Positions 22,105 to 27,484 of a DNA stretch of 64,000 bases are shown here, piece after piece. Made by a program: the position numbers and the translations under genes. Source of the DNA: Conexivisphaerales archaeon. Its GTDB lineage: Archaea; Thermoproteota; Nitrososphaeria; Conexivisphaerales; DTJL01. Numbering within the stretch: position 1 is the first letter of the stretch; each line of letters opens with the position of its first letter. Where the stretch lies: assembly GCA_038728585.1 (NCBI GenBank), contig JAVYTR010000009.1, positions 1 through 64,000 on the forward strand. Reading direction: 5' to 3'. The notes beneath the pieces were generated by a model. That model did not search any database and had not been told where the DNA came from. It worked only from the letters and a program-made list of their open reading frames with translations.

Positions 22105-22962
22105 TCAGCTTAAGATTTCTGAAACCTTTCTGTAAAGGATCTCGTTCGAAGCTGCGTAATAGGCGAAGGTCTGCTTTGTGTCAAGCCTCATATCTTCAAG
22201 CCCTTCCAGACTGAAGGGACATTTGGCAGTCTTCAGAAGGAAGAGGGAGGGAAAGCAGTCAAAGCTCCTGAGCTTACCTCCTGAGCAGACATATGCATCT
22301 ATTCTACCGGAAGCTATGTAGGCAGTTTCAAGAGCAGCTGTGCTGAAGACCCTTGGATATCTGACCATCCGCATCAGCCTGTTGACCCTGCTCATCTTCT
22401 CCTCGGATAGCATGAAGAATTTTGAGTCAAAAGACACTACAGCATCTTCGAGATTGCTGATTCTGCTGGGTTGAGCAAGCCTCCAGTCTTCAAATACCTT
22501 GCTACCATCTCCCCACACCATTCTAGAGTTTGAATGGTCTATCACCCCTGCTGCAACTATACCCGAAAATTCCCTGCTTTCGGAAACTGCAACTGATGTT
22601 GAGAATAGGCCTACGCCTCTTTTCGCATTGGTGCTTCCGTCAACAGGGTCAAGTAGAATGTAAACCCCTCTGCCATTCTTTACTCCAGCCTCTTCGGAGA
22701 TTATGTTCGGGTTTTCAAAGTATTCCTTCGCAACAGAGATCACAGCATCCTCAGCAACCCTATCGACCTTGTAGGTTGTATCTCCGTATGCTCCTTTCCC
22801 GAGCGAAAGCCCTGCATCCTGGCTTTTTTCTATGTTCAGAACAGCCTGGTGAGCTGCGAACAGGCAATCCTTCACGAAAGAGAGATAATCAGATATTTGC
22901 AAAGCAACTTCAACGGCTCCTTTGAGACTTTTTCTTCCCCTTGCCGGTTGATAAGAGTTCAA
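22105..22962 (-). CDS. Inositol monophosphatase / fructose-1,6-bisphosphatase family protein
   Basis: Mg-dependent sugar phosphatase of up to 285 residues. Metal-binding motifs: ISEEAG (glutamate), DPVDGSTN (the family DPxDGTxN with Ser for Thr) and the late GGKLRSFD, which stands in for the usual WDxAA. Archaeal members often act on both inositol-1-phosphate and fructose-1,6-bisphosphate. The TTG at 22962 overlaps the upstream gene by 53 bases. A later TTG at 22902 would avoid this and still leave the fold intact. It is transcribed after the MCM-like gene. Confidence 0.8.
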   Translation of the reverse strand: MNSYQPARGRKSLKGAVEVALQISDYLSFVKDCLFAAHQAVLNIEKSQDAGLSLGKGAYGDTTYKVDRVAEDAVISVAKEYFENPNIISEEAGVKNGRGVYILLDPVDGSTNAKRGVGLFSTSVAVSESREFSGIVAAGVIDHSNSRMVWGDGSKVFEDWRLAQPSRISNLEDAVVSFDSKFFMLSEEKMSRVNRLMRMVRYPRVFSTAALETAYIASGRIDAYVCSGGKLRSFDCFPSLFLLKTAKCPFSLEGLEDMRLDTKQTFAYYAASNEILYRKVSEILS

Positions 22963-24235
22963 GGGATGAAATAGCCATGTTGAGCAGCTGGTATGCTTCT
23001 TTGTAGTCTAAATCTTCAACTCTTTCCCTTAGGTTCAGCTTTGCTTCAGCCATTGCCAGCCTGCTAGCTACGTAGTTCATATCCGGCGAAAAACCTGTCA
23101 AACCTTCATGTTTAACGTTTTTCATCTCTAAGTTTTGCGGAGCTGCTGTAATCCTCAGCTCTCTTTCCATAGTCCTTGCAAGAAGCTTGTCTATTTCTGA
23201 GAGGTCAGCTTCGCTGTTCCTCAGCTGCTCAGGCATCTGTACCAACCTATCCTTACCCTCTCTATCAGGCATCACCATCGCTATATCAAAGAGACCAAGC
23301 AGGTCAGGTTCCAGCTTCTCCAATTCTGCTGCCCAGCAATTCAGTATTATTGCTCCCCTTTTAGACCATGCATCGTCATCAGGCATCAACTTCGGATAAG
23401 CCATTGCCTCTAGTAGCTGCCCCCTTTCCTCCCCTTCAGCCCTTGCCCAGTCATCGACCATAATCATCCATCCTTCTCTGCACAGAGAAGCTGCTTCAGC
23501 CAGCTTCTCCTGTGAAGAATTTCCAAGCGTAAGATGTTTCACTCTCGGGAAAAGATTCCTTATAAGCAGCTGCGTCGATGTCTTGTTTGCTGAACCAGCC
23601 TTCCATATTACCATCAGATTCAGTGCCCTTGCCAGATGGAGCCTGAGGCACAGCTTGGAAAGGAGAAGGATGTCCTTCGATGAGGAAAAAGCCTTAGTCA
23701 GCAAATCATCAAGTTCCTTCAAACTTCTCCATTTTGAGACGACAACCCTCTGCTTCCTCAGCTCCTGAAGGAGAGAAGCGTTTGCCTTGTATTCGTTCCA
23801 CTGGGCCTGTGCAAAAGGATACTGCTCAGGCTTCAACCTTATTGTTATTTCGTATTCATCTCCTCTTTCTCTGACATCAGTATCGACATAGATGTAATAT
23901 ACCCCAAGCCTGCCCAGAACCGATTTCAGAGTGGCTTCCCTGTCATAGTTCTTCGCCGCACTAACAAAGATCGCATCATTCCTTACCTCTATACCTCTTA
24001 TCACCTCATCAGCAACCACAGTCCTTGCGTGAAGAACCCATCTCGGAAAATCTTCACCGAGTTTCGTGAACCTTTCATCGTAAGGGTCAAGTCTGGCAAG
24101 GTCCGCAAGGTTCCTGACGTTATGGTCGAGCAGAGTTCTTGAAGCTATGCTTCCCAGGCCAGGCACAGTATTTATGCTCTGGTACCCTTTGGGAACCAGT
24201 CTGTTAGAATTCCCGGCCAAGCTTTCAGGAAGCAT
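22910..24235 (-). CDS. Degenerate MCM-related AAA+ protein with N-terminal helix-hairpin-helix
   Basis: Protein of 441 residues. Residues 22-45 form a helix-hairpin-helix (VPGLGSIASRTLLDHNV). Residues 205-425 align in order with the MCM helicase motor: a Walker A-like KAGSANKTS (211-220; MCM has GDPGTAKS), PRVKHLTLGNSS, a Walker B-like MIMVDDWA (257-264), LLEAMA (274-279), an arginine-finger block reading LLGLFDIAMVM instead of LLSRFDLIFVL, and an MCM lid helix (RLAMAEAKLNL). The Walker A lysine is kept, but the arginine finger and the MCM insert hairpins are lost. It probably binds DNA or acts as a regulatory paralogue. It sits immediately downstream of ileS. Confidence 0.65.
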   Translation of the reverse strand: MLPESLAGNSNRLVPKGYQSINTVPGLGSIASRTLLDHNVRNLADLARLDPYDERFTKLGEDFPRWVLHARTVVADEVIRGIEVRNDAIFVSAAKNYDREATLKSVLGRLGVYYIYVDTDVRERGDEYEITIRLKPEQYPFAQAQWNEYKANASLLQELRKQRVVVSKWRSLKELDDLLTKAFSSSKDILLLSKLCLRLHLARALNLMVIWKAGSANKTSTQLLIRNLFPRVKHLTLGNSSQEKLAEAASLCREGWMIMVDDWARAEGEERGQLLEAMAYPKLMPDDDAWSKRGAIILNCWAAELEKLEPDLLGLFDIAMVMPDREGKDRLVQMPEQLRNSEADLSEIDKLLARTMERELRITAAPQNLEMKNVKHEGLTGFSPDMNYVASRLAMAEAKLNLRERVEDLDYKEAYQLLNMAISSLELLSTGKGKKKSQRSR

Positions 24236-24244
24236 ACTGCACCA

Positions 24245-27200
24245 TTAGATATCTATGTATATAGTTCTGCCGTCAAGCTCCGACTCTTCCCAATCCTTTA
24301 TGTTATCCTTCTCTTTATCTACAATCTCAAGCTTCTCTGCTCTTATCAAGTATAGCAGTCTTTCCTTGCCCTTAAGCAGAGCCTGCCTCACCTCTTCATC
24401 AACACCAGCTATCCTTGCAACAGGCAGCATCTCAGTAGGCTTGTAACCTTTCTTCTTCCTGAGAGCCTGAAACCTTCTTGCAACGTCTCTAAGCAGCCCC
24501 TCTGCTATCAGTTCCTTATCCCTGAATGTATCAAGGGAGACAATGTATTCATTACCGATCGCTGCACTGTATCCTTCCTTTCCACTCACTTCGAAAATCA
24601 GGTCCTCCTTCGTCAGCAGTATCAGCTGGTCATCAACGTTGACTTTGACTACTGCTGAAGGTTCTTTCTGCAAAGCCTTGTATATTTCTTCACCATTGGA
24701 TGCCAGATACTCAACAAGCTTGCCGAACATTCTTCCTGCCTTCTTGGCACTCTCCTTCTGGATTCTTGCCTTCAGCTCTATCCCTCCTTCCGTAGGGCCT
24801 CTTACCCAGACAACTTCATGTACGTTTGCAAGCTCCTTCAGAAGTGTTTCAACCTCGTTGCTCAGCTTCTTCCCGTAGTAGAAAAGCTTCCTGAGCGGCC
24901 ACCTTCTCTTCAGACCACTCTTCATCCTTGCAGAATACGATAAAGATAAAACGGCGTATAGCCTCGAAAATTCTTCCTCCAGCTTCTGGTCTTCTGCACC
25001 TTCTTCTTCAGGATAGGTTGTTGATGCTAGAGGCTCTCTTGAGCCGAACACGCTTTTGTGAAGATACTCAGTGACAAACGGAACAAACGGGTGCATAAGC
25101 CTGTCGCAGACCTCCAGGGAATATCCGATTGCAGTATAGACTGCAAACCTCTTCATTCTTCCTTCCTCAGAATCGTCCCAAAGTATGCTCCTTGTCAAAG
25201 GAACATACTTCTGGCTCAGGTCTTCTATGAGAAAATTTTCGAACTCCCTTGCCGCTTCATGGAATCTTCTTGCCTCCACAGCCTCCCTGACTCTTCTTGT
25301 CAGTCTGTTCACCTTGCTCAGTATCCACTTTTCAGCCACACCAGCCTGAAGTGATTCTCCACGCCTCAGCTTCTCGACAGAGTCTCTGCTGTAAGAGTAG
25401 TTGTCAAAAGAGGAGTTTATTGCATAGTAGACATGCAGGTGGTAAAGTGTATTAAGGACCTGATAAGGCCTCTCTTTCATCTCTTCTTCAATGTAGGAGA
25501 TAGGCTCTGCTGGTGCAGCCTTCCAGAGCATATAGAACCTGAGAAGGTCGACTGAATTTCTTGTCAGTGCATCCAACCCACCCACATAGTTCCCTTTGCT
25601 CTTGCTCATCTTTTCGCCCTTGGCATCCAGAACATGCCCCTGGAACAGAAAAGACCTGTAAGGAGCCTGAGGCTTACCTGTAAGAAGGACGTTCTCTACA
25701 AGCAGTGTGTAGGCCCAGCCCCTCGTCTGGTCTATGCCTTCCGTAAGAAAAGGTACAGGTACTCTCAGCCTGTATTCATCTTCTCCAAGCCCCGCATAAG
25801 GCGCTGCTCCGCTGTTGTGCCAGGTGTCAAGGACAAAAGGTTCTCTGTATGACTTTCCTCCACACTTCTGACACCTGATTACAACCCTATCTATCCATGG
25901 CCTGTGAAGTTCAAAATTTTCGCCGTCAGGTAGCTCTACTGCATTCTTCACAATCTCACTCCTGCTGAAAAGAAAACTCTTGTTACCGCAGCTCCTGCAG
26001 ACCCATACAGGCAAAGGAGCTCCCCATACTCTTTCCCTTGTTATATTCCAAGGTCTTCCTTCCCTTATTATGTTCAGAAATCTGTTCTTCGGCGATTCAT
26101 AGTAGTATTCTACTTTCTGTGCGGCTTGAAGGGTCAGGTCCTTGATCCTGTCGATCCAGTAGAAGTATTCTCTCCTTGCCATGTATATCAGCCTGTGCCC
26201 TGACCTCCAGCACAGAGGGTATTCGTGGACTATCTTCTTAGCATCGACAAGGAGTCCCTTCTTTCTCAACAATTCAACAACAGGCTGGTCTGTGTCTCTT
26301 GCGAATTTTTGTGCAAATACTCCAGCTTCTTCGGTAAAGCTGCAGGAGTCGTCGAAAGGATTGAATACAGGCAGAGACCTCTTCCTTGCAACCTCGTAAT
26401 CTTCTTCGCCGTTGGCTGGAGAAAGGTGGACAAGCCCAGAGCCTGTGGTTATATCGACAAACTCTTCAGCAACAACGAAATGAACCTTCCTGCTATCGAA
26501 AAGAGTTCTCTGTCCGGAAACTTCTTCAAGAAGCGGCGGCAAGTATCTTATCCCTTCCAGCTCCTTCCCCTTTTTTCTGCTCAGTATCTCGCCGAAAGAA
26601 ACCTTAAGCTCATCCCTGAGCGCTTCAAGTCTCTTCTCAGATACTATCCATACTTCATCATAAACTTTCACATAAACGTAGTATTCATCAGGGTGAACAC
26701 CTACCAGCTCGTCCGTGATGATTGTAAAAGGCATGGTTGTCCATACAAGCAGGTAAAGCTGGTCCTGCCTATCATCGATAACCTTGGCCTTGTAATAAAC
26801 AGAAGGGTCATCCACCTGCTCATAGCCGAGCCCAACCTCTTCATGAGAAAGAGAGGTCTGGCAGCTTGGGCAGTAAGGAACCACCTTGTAGCCCTCGCCA
26901 AGCAATCCTGACTTGTATGCAGCCTCAAGGTATTTCCATTCCCTCTCTATGTATTCATCCTTATACGTCCAGTAAGCTCTCTCATCGTCCATCTGTAGCC
27001 CAAGCAGTCTGTCGCACTGCAACCAGTACTGATGATACTTCATTATGAGAGCCTTGCAAGTCTCGACTATCTTGCTCTCTCCAACAGCCTTGAGGTTCTC
27101 TATCTTGCTTCCAGTAAGCCCCAGCTCCTTCTCAGCTTCTAGTTCAACGGGCAGGCCTTGAGTATCCCATCCACAGTTGAAGATGACCTTAGTACCTTTC

Positions 27201-27427
27201 ATGCTTTCGAACCTGTGCCAGAGGTCCTTCATTATTCTACCCCTTACGTGACCGACGTGTGGAAGTCCGTTGAGAGTGGGAGGCCCTTCGACCCATCCGA
27301 TAGTCCTTTCAGTCTTTCTTTCCCTTAGCAGCTTCTTCAGGTCAATCTCTTCCCAGTAATTTCTAACCGTCTCTTCGACGAACGCAGCATCATACTGCTC
27401 TTTCAGTTCGAACCTGCTTGCAGGCAT
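24245..27427 (-). CDS. ileS: Isoleucyl-tRNA synthetase
   Basis: Class I aminoacyl-tRNA synthetase of about 1060 residues charging tRNA-Ile. The HIGH motif reads HVGH at residues 57-60 and KMSKS lies near residue 606. The zinc-type cysteine pairs (CRSC, CQKC) and the editing domain (MPFTIITDELVGVHP) are present. ATG 27427 is preferred to the in-frame TTG 27448, because a TATA box (GAATATAACC on the minus strand, 27455-27464) lies about 32 nt upstream. Length and order are normal for archaeal IleRS. Confidence 0.97.
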   Translation of the reverse strand: MPASRFELKEQYDAAFVEETVRNYWEEIDLKKLLRERKTERTIGWVEGPPTLNGLPHVGHVRGRIMKDLWHRFESMKGTKVIFNCGWDTQGLPVELEAEKELGLTGSKIENLKAVGESKIVETCKALIMKYHQYWLQCDRLLGLQMDDERAYWTYKDEYIEREWKYLEAAYKSGLLGEGYKVVPYCPSCQTSLSHEEVGLGYEQVDDPSVYYKAKVIDDRQDQLYLLVWTTMPFTIITDELVGVHPDEYYVYVKVYDEVWIVSEKRLEALRDELKVSFGEILSRKKGKELEGIRYLPPLLEEVSGQRTLFDSRKVHFVVAEEFVDITTGSGLVHLSPANGEEDYEVARKRSLPVFNPFDDSCSFTEEAGVFAQKFARDTDQPVVELLRKKGLLVDAKKIVHEYPLCWRSGHRLIYMARREYFYWIDRIKDLTLQAAQKVEYYYESPKNRFLNIIREGRPWNITRERVWGAPLPVWVCRSCGNKSFLFSRSEIVKNAVELPDGENFELHRPWIDRVVIRCQKCGGKSYREPFVLDTWHNSGAAPYAGLGEDEYRLRVPVPFLTEGIDQTRGWAYTLLVENVLLTGKPQAPYRSFLFQGHVLDAKGEKMSKSKGNYVGGLDALTRNSVDLLRFYMLWKAAPAEPISYIEEEMKERPYQVLNTLYHLHVYYAINSSFDNYSYSRDSVEKLRRGESLQAGVAEKWILSKVNRLTRRVREAVEARRFHEAAREFENFLIEDLSQKYVPLTRSILWDDSEEGRMKRFAVYTAIGYSLEVCDRLMHPFVPFVTEYLHKSVFGSREPLASTTYPEEEGAEDQKLEEEFSRLYAVLSLSYSARMKSGLKRRWPLRKLFYYGKKLSNEVETLLKELANVHEVVWVRGPTEGGIELKARIQKESAKKAGRMFGKLVEYLASNGEEIYKALQKEPSAVVKVNVDDQLILLTKEDLIFEVSGKEGYSAAIGNEYIVSLDTFRDKELIAEGLLRDVARRFQALRKKKGYKPTEMLPVARIAGVDEEVRQALLKGKERLLYLIRAEKLEIVDKEKDNIKDWEESELDGRTIYIDI

Positions 27428-27484
27428 GCTTGCGCCGTCTTCTCTCAAGCATGAGGTTATATTCTTTAGTGCTTTACTTGCGTG

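Follow-up and report, generated by a model that had tools for sequence, protein, structure and literature searches.

A degenerate MCM-derived protein with a helix-hairpin-helix head in a Conexivisphaerales archaeon and its relatives

Introduction

Archaeal MCM is usually regarded as a single, self-sufficient homohexamer. Inactive relatives of MCM have precedents: Methanopyrus kandleri MCM2 (mkaMCM2) is an inactive homologue that is without a conserved Walker A motif and contains internal deletions (PMC2933578), and it retains the MCM-type N-terminal A/B/C architecture (PMC4619765), while the MCM-like eukaryotic protein MCMBP is without Walker A and promotes the assembly of MCM2-7 (PMC9018068). 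The protein considered here, labeled X, is a further variant. It is encoded in a stretch of 64,000 nucleotides (the window; positions 1 to 64,000 of contig JAVYTR010000009.1, assembly GCA_038728585.1) from a Conexivisphaerales archaeon, whose genome is labeled G000. A preliminary description, made from the letters of this DNA, had proposed that X is a degenerate, non-helicase MCM paralogue fused to a helix-hairpin-helix (HhH), and the open reading frame (ORF) lies exactly at the position that it gave (Table 1). The family profile, reciprocal Pfam matches, and motifs presented below support its proposal, and X is very probably an MCM-derived protein that does not act as a motor.

X shares with canonical archaeal MCM (PF00493 plus PF17855) the order of the AAA+ core from P-loop to lid, along with profile matches in both directions, but it differs from canonical MCM in lacking an intact ATPase site, the arginine finger, sensor 2, the helix-2 insert, the winged helix, and the MCM N-terminal domain. 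Like mkaMCM2 (PDB 3f8t), X is an archaeal MCM paralogue that, judged by its sequence, is inactive, with no conserved Walker A and with internal deletions, and a profile of its family matches mkaMCM2 directly (E = 1e-4); unlike mkaMCM2, which keeps the MCM N-terminal architecture, X has an HhH and an alpha/beta domain in its place. The MCMBP Pfam family matched neither the protein from the window (E up to 10) nor all members of the X family (E up to 1). In the portions of the literature compared, an HhH head is not described for either MCMBP or mkaMCM2.

Results

X belongs to the MCM family

As a single sequence, X finds nothing convincing in Pfam, NCBIfam, or PDB: its match to Pfam MCM_lid (E = 0.0056) lies under the curated cut-off, and a search of PDB sequences returned no match, such that a family profile was required. 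This profile, A2, comprises five rows, one for each member of the family: X itself, its relatives in G001 and G005 (same order), and those in G202 and G257 (congeneric, from a different family within the class). A2 matches the canonical MCMs of other archaea, which are about 690 amino acids (aa) long, with E values down to 3e-17 over positions 247 to 435. Against all PDB sequences, the best matches are almost all MCMs, with no other protein among the top 57 or so sequences; they are led by chain 7 of 6raw (E = 2.2e-11), with weak matches to the HhH of Pol beta appearing only at E = 0.001.

Profile-profile comparison by hhalign of the X family with 19 canonical archaeal MCMs gave a probability of 97.9% (pairwise E = 4.6e-13) over 261 columns, extending from before Walker A to past the lid, and comparisons with single MCMs gave 94 to 97%. 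The controls were far lower, at 1.9% for the AAA+ protein MoxR from the same genome and at most 0.3% for shuffled MCM. In the reverse direction, Pfam MCM_lid detects all five copies, three of them below the cut-off, with the G202 copy reaching 38.1 bits against a cut-off of 27.4. The order of MCM motor motifs noticed in the preliminary description is therefore real and far above chance, and X is assigned by profile to MCM AAA+ plus MCM_lid over other AAA+ families, with no better match to an unrelated ATPase family.

The predicted structure points the same way. The best Foldseek matches of the AlphaFold model of X are MCM chains (E = 1.6e-6), and the predicted fold is AAA+-like, although the AAA+ half has a predicted local distance difference test (pLDDT) score near 60 and low TM-scores, making the fold comparison supporting evidence only. 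A tree placing X among MCMs leaves it outside the sampled MCM clusters, with branches of 5 to 9 changes per column that render the placement unreliable.

The motor is eroded in every member

None of the five members has both Walker A (GxxxxGK[ST]) and Walker B (hhhhDE) intact. The two motifs, GDPGTAKS and IDE in canonical MCM, read KAGSANKT and VDD in G000, GEDSANRT and LDE in G001, DKDSLNRS and IDD in G005, APSVGAKT and LEG in G202, and APSVGAKT and LAG in G257. All five have altered P-loop glycines, as had been noted for the window protein, and the Walker A lysine, correctly recognized in that protein, is not a feature of the family: it is kept within a Lys-Thr pair in G000, G202, and G257 but is replaced by arginine in G001 and G005.

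The residues that MCM subunits lend to their neighbors have likewise disappeared. The arginine finger (T/SRFD) is lost throughout the family (GLFD in G000, and GLIN, GLFH, and EYCH among the other members), in line with the change from SRFD to GLFD that had been reported, and the sensor-2 arginine is absent from all five, whereas the sensor-1 asparagine is retained only in G202 and G257. The insert hairpins had been described as deleted, which holds for the helix-2 insert block (missing from all five members) but not for the presensor-1 hairpin region, which has its full length in G202 and G257 and almost its full length in G001 and G005 and is only shortened in G000. X terminates past the lid without a C-terminal winged helix, and with the MCM N-terminal A, zinc, and OB domains also replaced, it measures about 440 aa, as opposed to about 690 aa for canonical MCM. 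The residues lost differ between members, suggesting that the motor eroded partly independently among lineages.

The front half carries a conserved HhH and an alpha/beta domain

Modeled separately with AlphaFold2 (AF2), the front half of X yields a confident structure (pLDDT 88.5, predicted TM-score 0.82, with pLDDT above 90 in the HhH region), consisting of an HhH followed by an alpha/beta domain, which accords with the earlier suggestion that the OB and zinc domains had been exchanged for an HhH and a further region. The hGhG hairpin is intact in all five members (VPGLG, VPGLG, LPGIG, VAGLG, and VAGLG), and one relative matches Pfam HHH_5 (E = 0.0003). By hhalign, the HhH matches the thumb of archaeal Y-family polymerases at 96.7% (column-shuffled controls, at most 1.3%), and it also matches Pol beta (E = 0.002) and the RadA of G000 itself (E = 7e-4). 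All of these share with X the hGhG hairpin and the helices that follow, but in X no polymerase or RecA domain comes after the HhH. Judging from these matches, X would bind DNA through its HhH module.

Two more specific identities were considered and rejected. A front half captured from a Y-family polymerase, as thumb plus little finger, fails in that the little finger gives no significant alignment and that the HhHs of RadA and Pol beta match as well; and RadA does not account for the HhH matches of about 366 aa, most of which are Y-family polymerases. For the alpha/beta domain, Pfam, PDB sequences, and Foldseek gave no significant match; in the fold search with the front domain, the only matches were weak ones, with designed proteins or with folds resembling ribosomal L23.

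The HhH is the most conserved part of the family, with 70% identity between X and its G001 relative. Outside the G202/G257 pair, identity to relatives is 28 to 70% in the front half versus 20 to 31% in the AAA+ half. The fusion of HhH to MCM thus stands as first described, except that the better-conserved half is the HhH half and not the MCM half.

Two observations concern the polymerases and recombinases themselves. Searches with PF00817 detected a Y-family polymerase in 13 of 20 genomes of the order of G000; it was missing from G005 and from all four genomes examined of family f2. The RadA-like gene of G000 (L153, contig C6, approximately 91711 to 91827) lies in an open frame of 596 aa, over the usual length of RadA, possibly reflecting an intein.

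X is under strong purifying selection

The G202 and G257 proteins are 92% identical, and their ratio of nonsynonymous to synonymous substitution rates (dN/dS; Nei-Gojobori) is 0.077 for the whole protein, with 0.079 for the front half and 0.076 for the AAA+ half. Four neighboring genes compared between the same two genomes have higher ratios, ranging from 0.10 to 0.21. Together with ORFs that are intact in all five genomes (424 to 453 aa), these values indicate that X is under strong purifying selection and hence is not a decaying pseudogene.

The family is narrowly distributed and coexists with canonical MCM

Among 61 related genomes searched at the protein level, relatives appeared in G001, from the family of G000 (39% identity), and in G005 (28%); those in G202 and G257 emerged, with E of about 1e-50, when a three-row profile was run against 400 genomes of the class. 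Searching with A2 in 201 genomes of the order of G202 and 398 genomes of the phylum uncovered no further member. When the window protein by itself was used in a pattern-based scan across about 85,000 GTDB species, only one locus was recovered, in Thaumarchaeota archaeon Centralia_MAG_53, whose protein agrees with that of G001. Within this sample of the class and phylum, which does not exhaust either, the family is narrow, and even in the family of G202, X occurs in only two of the five genomes examined. No relatives were found in viral contigs, plasmids, or phages, and an origin from mobile elements was rejected on this basis.

The gene order ileS-X-suhB is shared by G000, G001, and G005, whereas X is missing and nothing separates ileS from suhB in G002 and G003 (both in the family of G000) and in G004, G007, and G009 (another family); in G002 and G003, X was not found elsewhere in the genome. 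Because X occupies the same position in two families and an IleS tree (ignoring the G003 row) separates G005 from the G000/G001 pair, the evidence favors the presence of X in the common ancestor of the two families, with later losses. In G202 and G257, X resides at another location, with a membrane-protein gene downstream in both. In G257, though not in G202, a transposase-like ORF (L122:9148-9576) is found immediately upstream of X.

An intact canonical MCM accompanies X in four of the five genomes (G000, G001, G202, and G257). None was found in G005, probably owing to its incomplete assembly (86% complete, in 300 contigs). The canonical MCM of G000 occupies an ORF of 1409 aa (L009:478-4707, minus strand; contig C1, approximately 385977 to 390206) and apparently contains two inteins, a first within Walker A (VGDPG/TGKS) and a second following STAAGL; directly upstream is a GINS-like ORF of 182 aa. 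That of G001 (contig C9:48838-54054) is an open frame of 1796 aa matched in four pieces, suggesting that it carries three inteins.

Table 1. Features of X and its neighboring genes in the window
Feature	Position	Strand	Description	Basis
X, whole coding sequence	22910..24235	-	441 aa; intact frame of 441 codons; ATG 9 nt past the ileS stop	
HhH domain of X	24002..24181	-	Residues 19-78; hairpin VPGLGSIA	Pfam, hhalign, AF2 model, identity
Alpha/beta domain of X	23741..24001	-	Residues 79-165; b-b-a-b-b-a	AF2 N-terminal model
Degenerate MCM AAA+ core and lid of X	22952..23740	-	Residues 166-428	hhalign, PDB MCM matches, Foldseek
Walker A remnant	23579..23602	-	KAGSANKT (canonical GDPGTAKS)	Alignment with MCMs
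Walker B remnant	23450..23467	-	MIMVDD; catalytic Glu to Asp	Motif comparison
Former arginine-finger site	23285..23302	-	LLGLFD (canonical LLTRFD/LLSRFD)	Motif comparison
MCM lid match	22973..23062	-	PF17855; sensor-2 Arg immediately upstream lost (TPRQLE to SPDMNY)	Pfam, motifs
Basic C-terminal tail	22913..22951	-	GKGKKKSQRSR, where MCM has the winged helix	Sequence
ileS	24245..27448	-	Upstream neighbor of X, same direction	
Inositol-monophosphatase-like gene (suhB type)	22105..22962	-	Downstream of X; start uncertain, TTG at 22962 would overlap X	

Discussion

We propose that X is an MCM paralogue turned pseudo-ATPase, in which the residues for hydrolysis have been lost both in cis (the Walker A glycines and the Walker B glutamate) and in trans. 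Tethered to DNA by its HhH module, X would present its MCM-shaped core as a surface for docking or oligomerization, with docking most likely on canonical MCM or on the CMG assembly, and would act as an adaptor, an assembly or loading factor, or a brake rather than as a motor, by a logic comparable to that supposed for eukaryotic MCMBP. As such, it may serve as a replication regulator or as a structural DNA-binding protein. The MCM homology, the loss of motifs in all five members, the DNA-binding type of front half, the purifying selection, and the coexisting canonical MCM are all features of the sequences that would fit a DNA-binding, MCM-derived adaptor that docks on MCM, a reading to which we give slightly less than an even chance; the docking mechanism in its own right we put forward tentatively. 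Several points weigh against it: the contact with MCM is one that we infer; X is dispensable in close relatives; its genomic neighbors are ileS and suhB and not replication genes; and the front half changes more slowly than the AAA+ half, contrary to what a closely conserved interface with MCM would lead one to expect.

Some of these points lend force to the alternative that X is a stand-alone DNA-binding or repair protein, with the HhH and alpha/beta domains acting on DNA that is damaged or branched and the MCM core serving as an oligomerization scaffold off the replisome. The better-conserved front half, the lack of replication genes nearby, the rapid evolution of the AAA+ half, and HhH profile matches to Y-family and X-family repair polymerases would all follow, but the alpha/beta domain is without a relative among repair proteins, and an AAA+ half that is strongly selected between G202 and G257 and retains an MCM lid in every member goes beyond a generic linker; we view this alternative as a serious minority possibility. 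An ATP-binding switch, in which some members bind ATP without hydrolysis and change shape, could draw on the Lys-Thr pair of G000, G202, and G257 and on the sensor-1 asparagine of the latter two. Such a switch is improbable, however, given that arginine replaces the lysine in G001 and G005, that altered P-loop glycines occur throughout the family, and that the pattern of loss varies such that nucleotide use is no shared trait.

The retention of the MCM fold and lid, together with the presence of multiple MCMs in several archaea (PMC3972481), might suggest that X sits in a hetero-hexameric MCM ring as a non-catalytic subunit. The arginine finger and sensor 2, which the site of a neighboring subunit would need, are gone from all members, as are the N-terminal collar that closes the ring and the helix-2 insert, and because X keeps neither the residues for its own hydrolysis nor those for the site of a neighbor, a working ring subunit is quite improbable. 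Eroded motifs and a patchy distribution are also what a decaying pseudogene or a misread frame would produce, but with intact ORFs in five genomes, the same operon position in two families, and a dN/dS of about 0.08, which refutes decay for the G202/G257 pair, this explanation is scarcely credible.

Returning to the DNA-tethered adaptor, its fullest form would be a lineage-specific regulator of replication or repair, in which a dead MCM docking domain is joined to a new DNA-recognition head of HhH and novel fold and acts directly on the homohexameric MCM, making X an archaeal counterpart, by analogy and with an independent architecture, to eukaryotic MCMBP-type pseudo-MCMs. So complete a picture is rather doubtful. 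"Dead helicase" relatives of MCM are rare, and they may have a regulatory role in replication or repair. That an ATPase-dead MCM relative with its own DNA-binding-type head has been maintained by selection suggests an archaeal regulator derived from the helicase, as is the case for MCMBP in eukaryotes. The X family shows the erosion of an MCM core, with different residues lost in each lineage, and offers a small, testable system for the control of helicase assembly by pseudo-MCMs.
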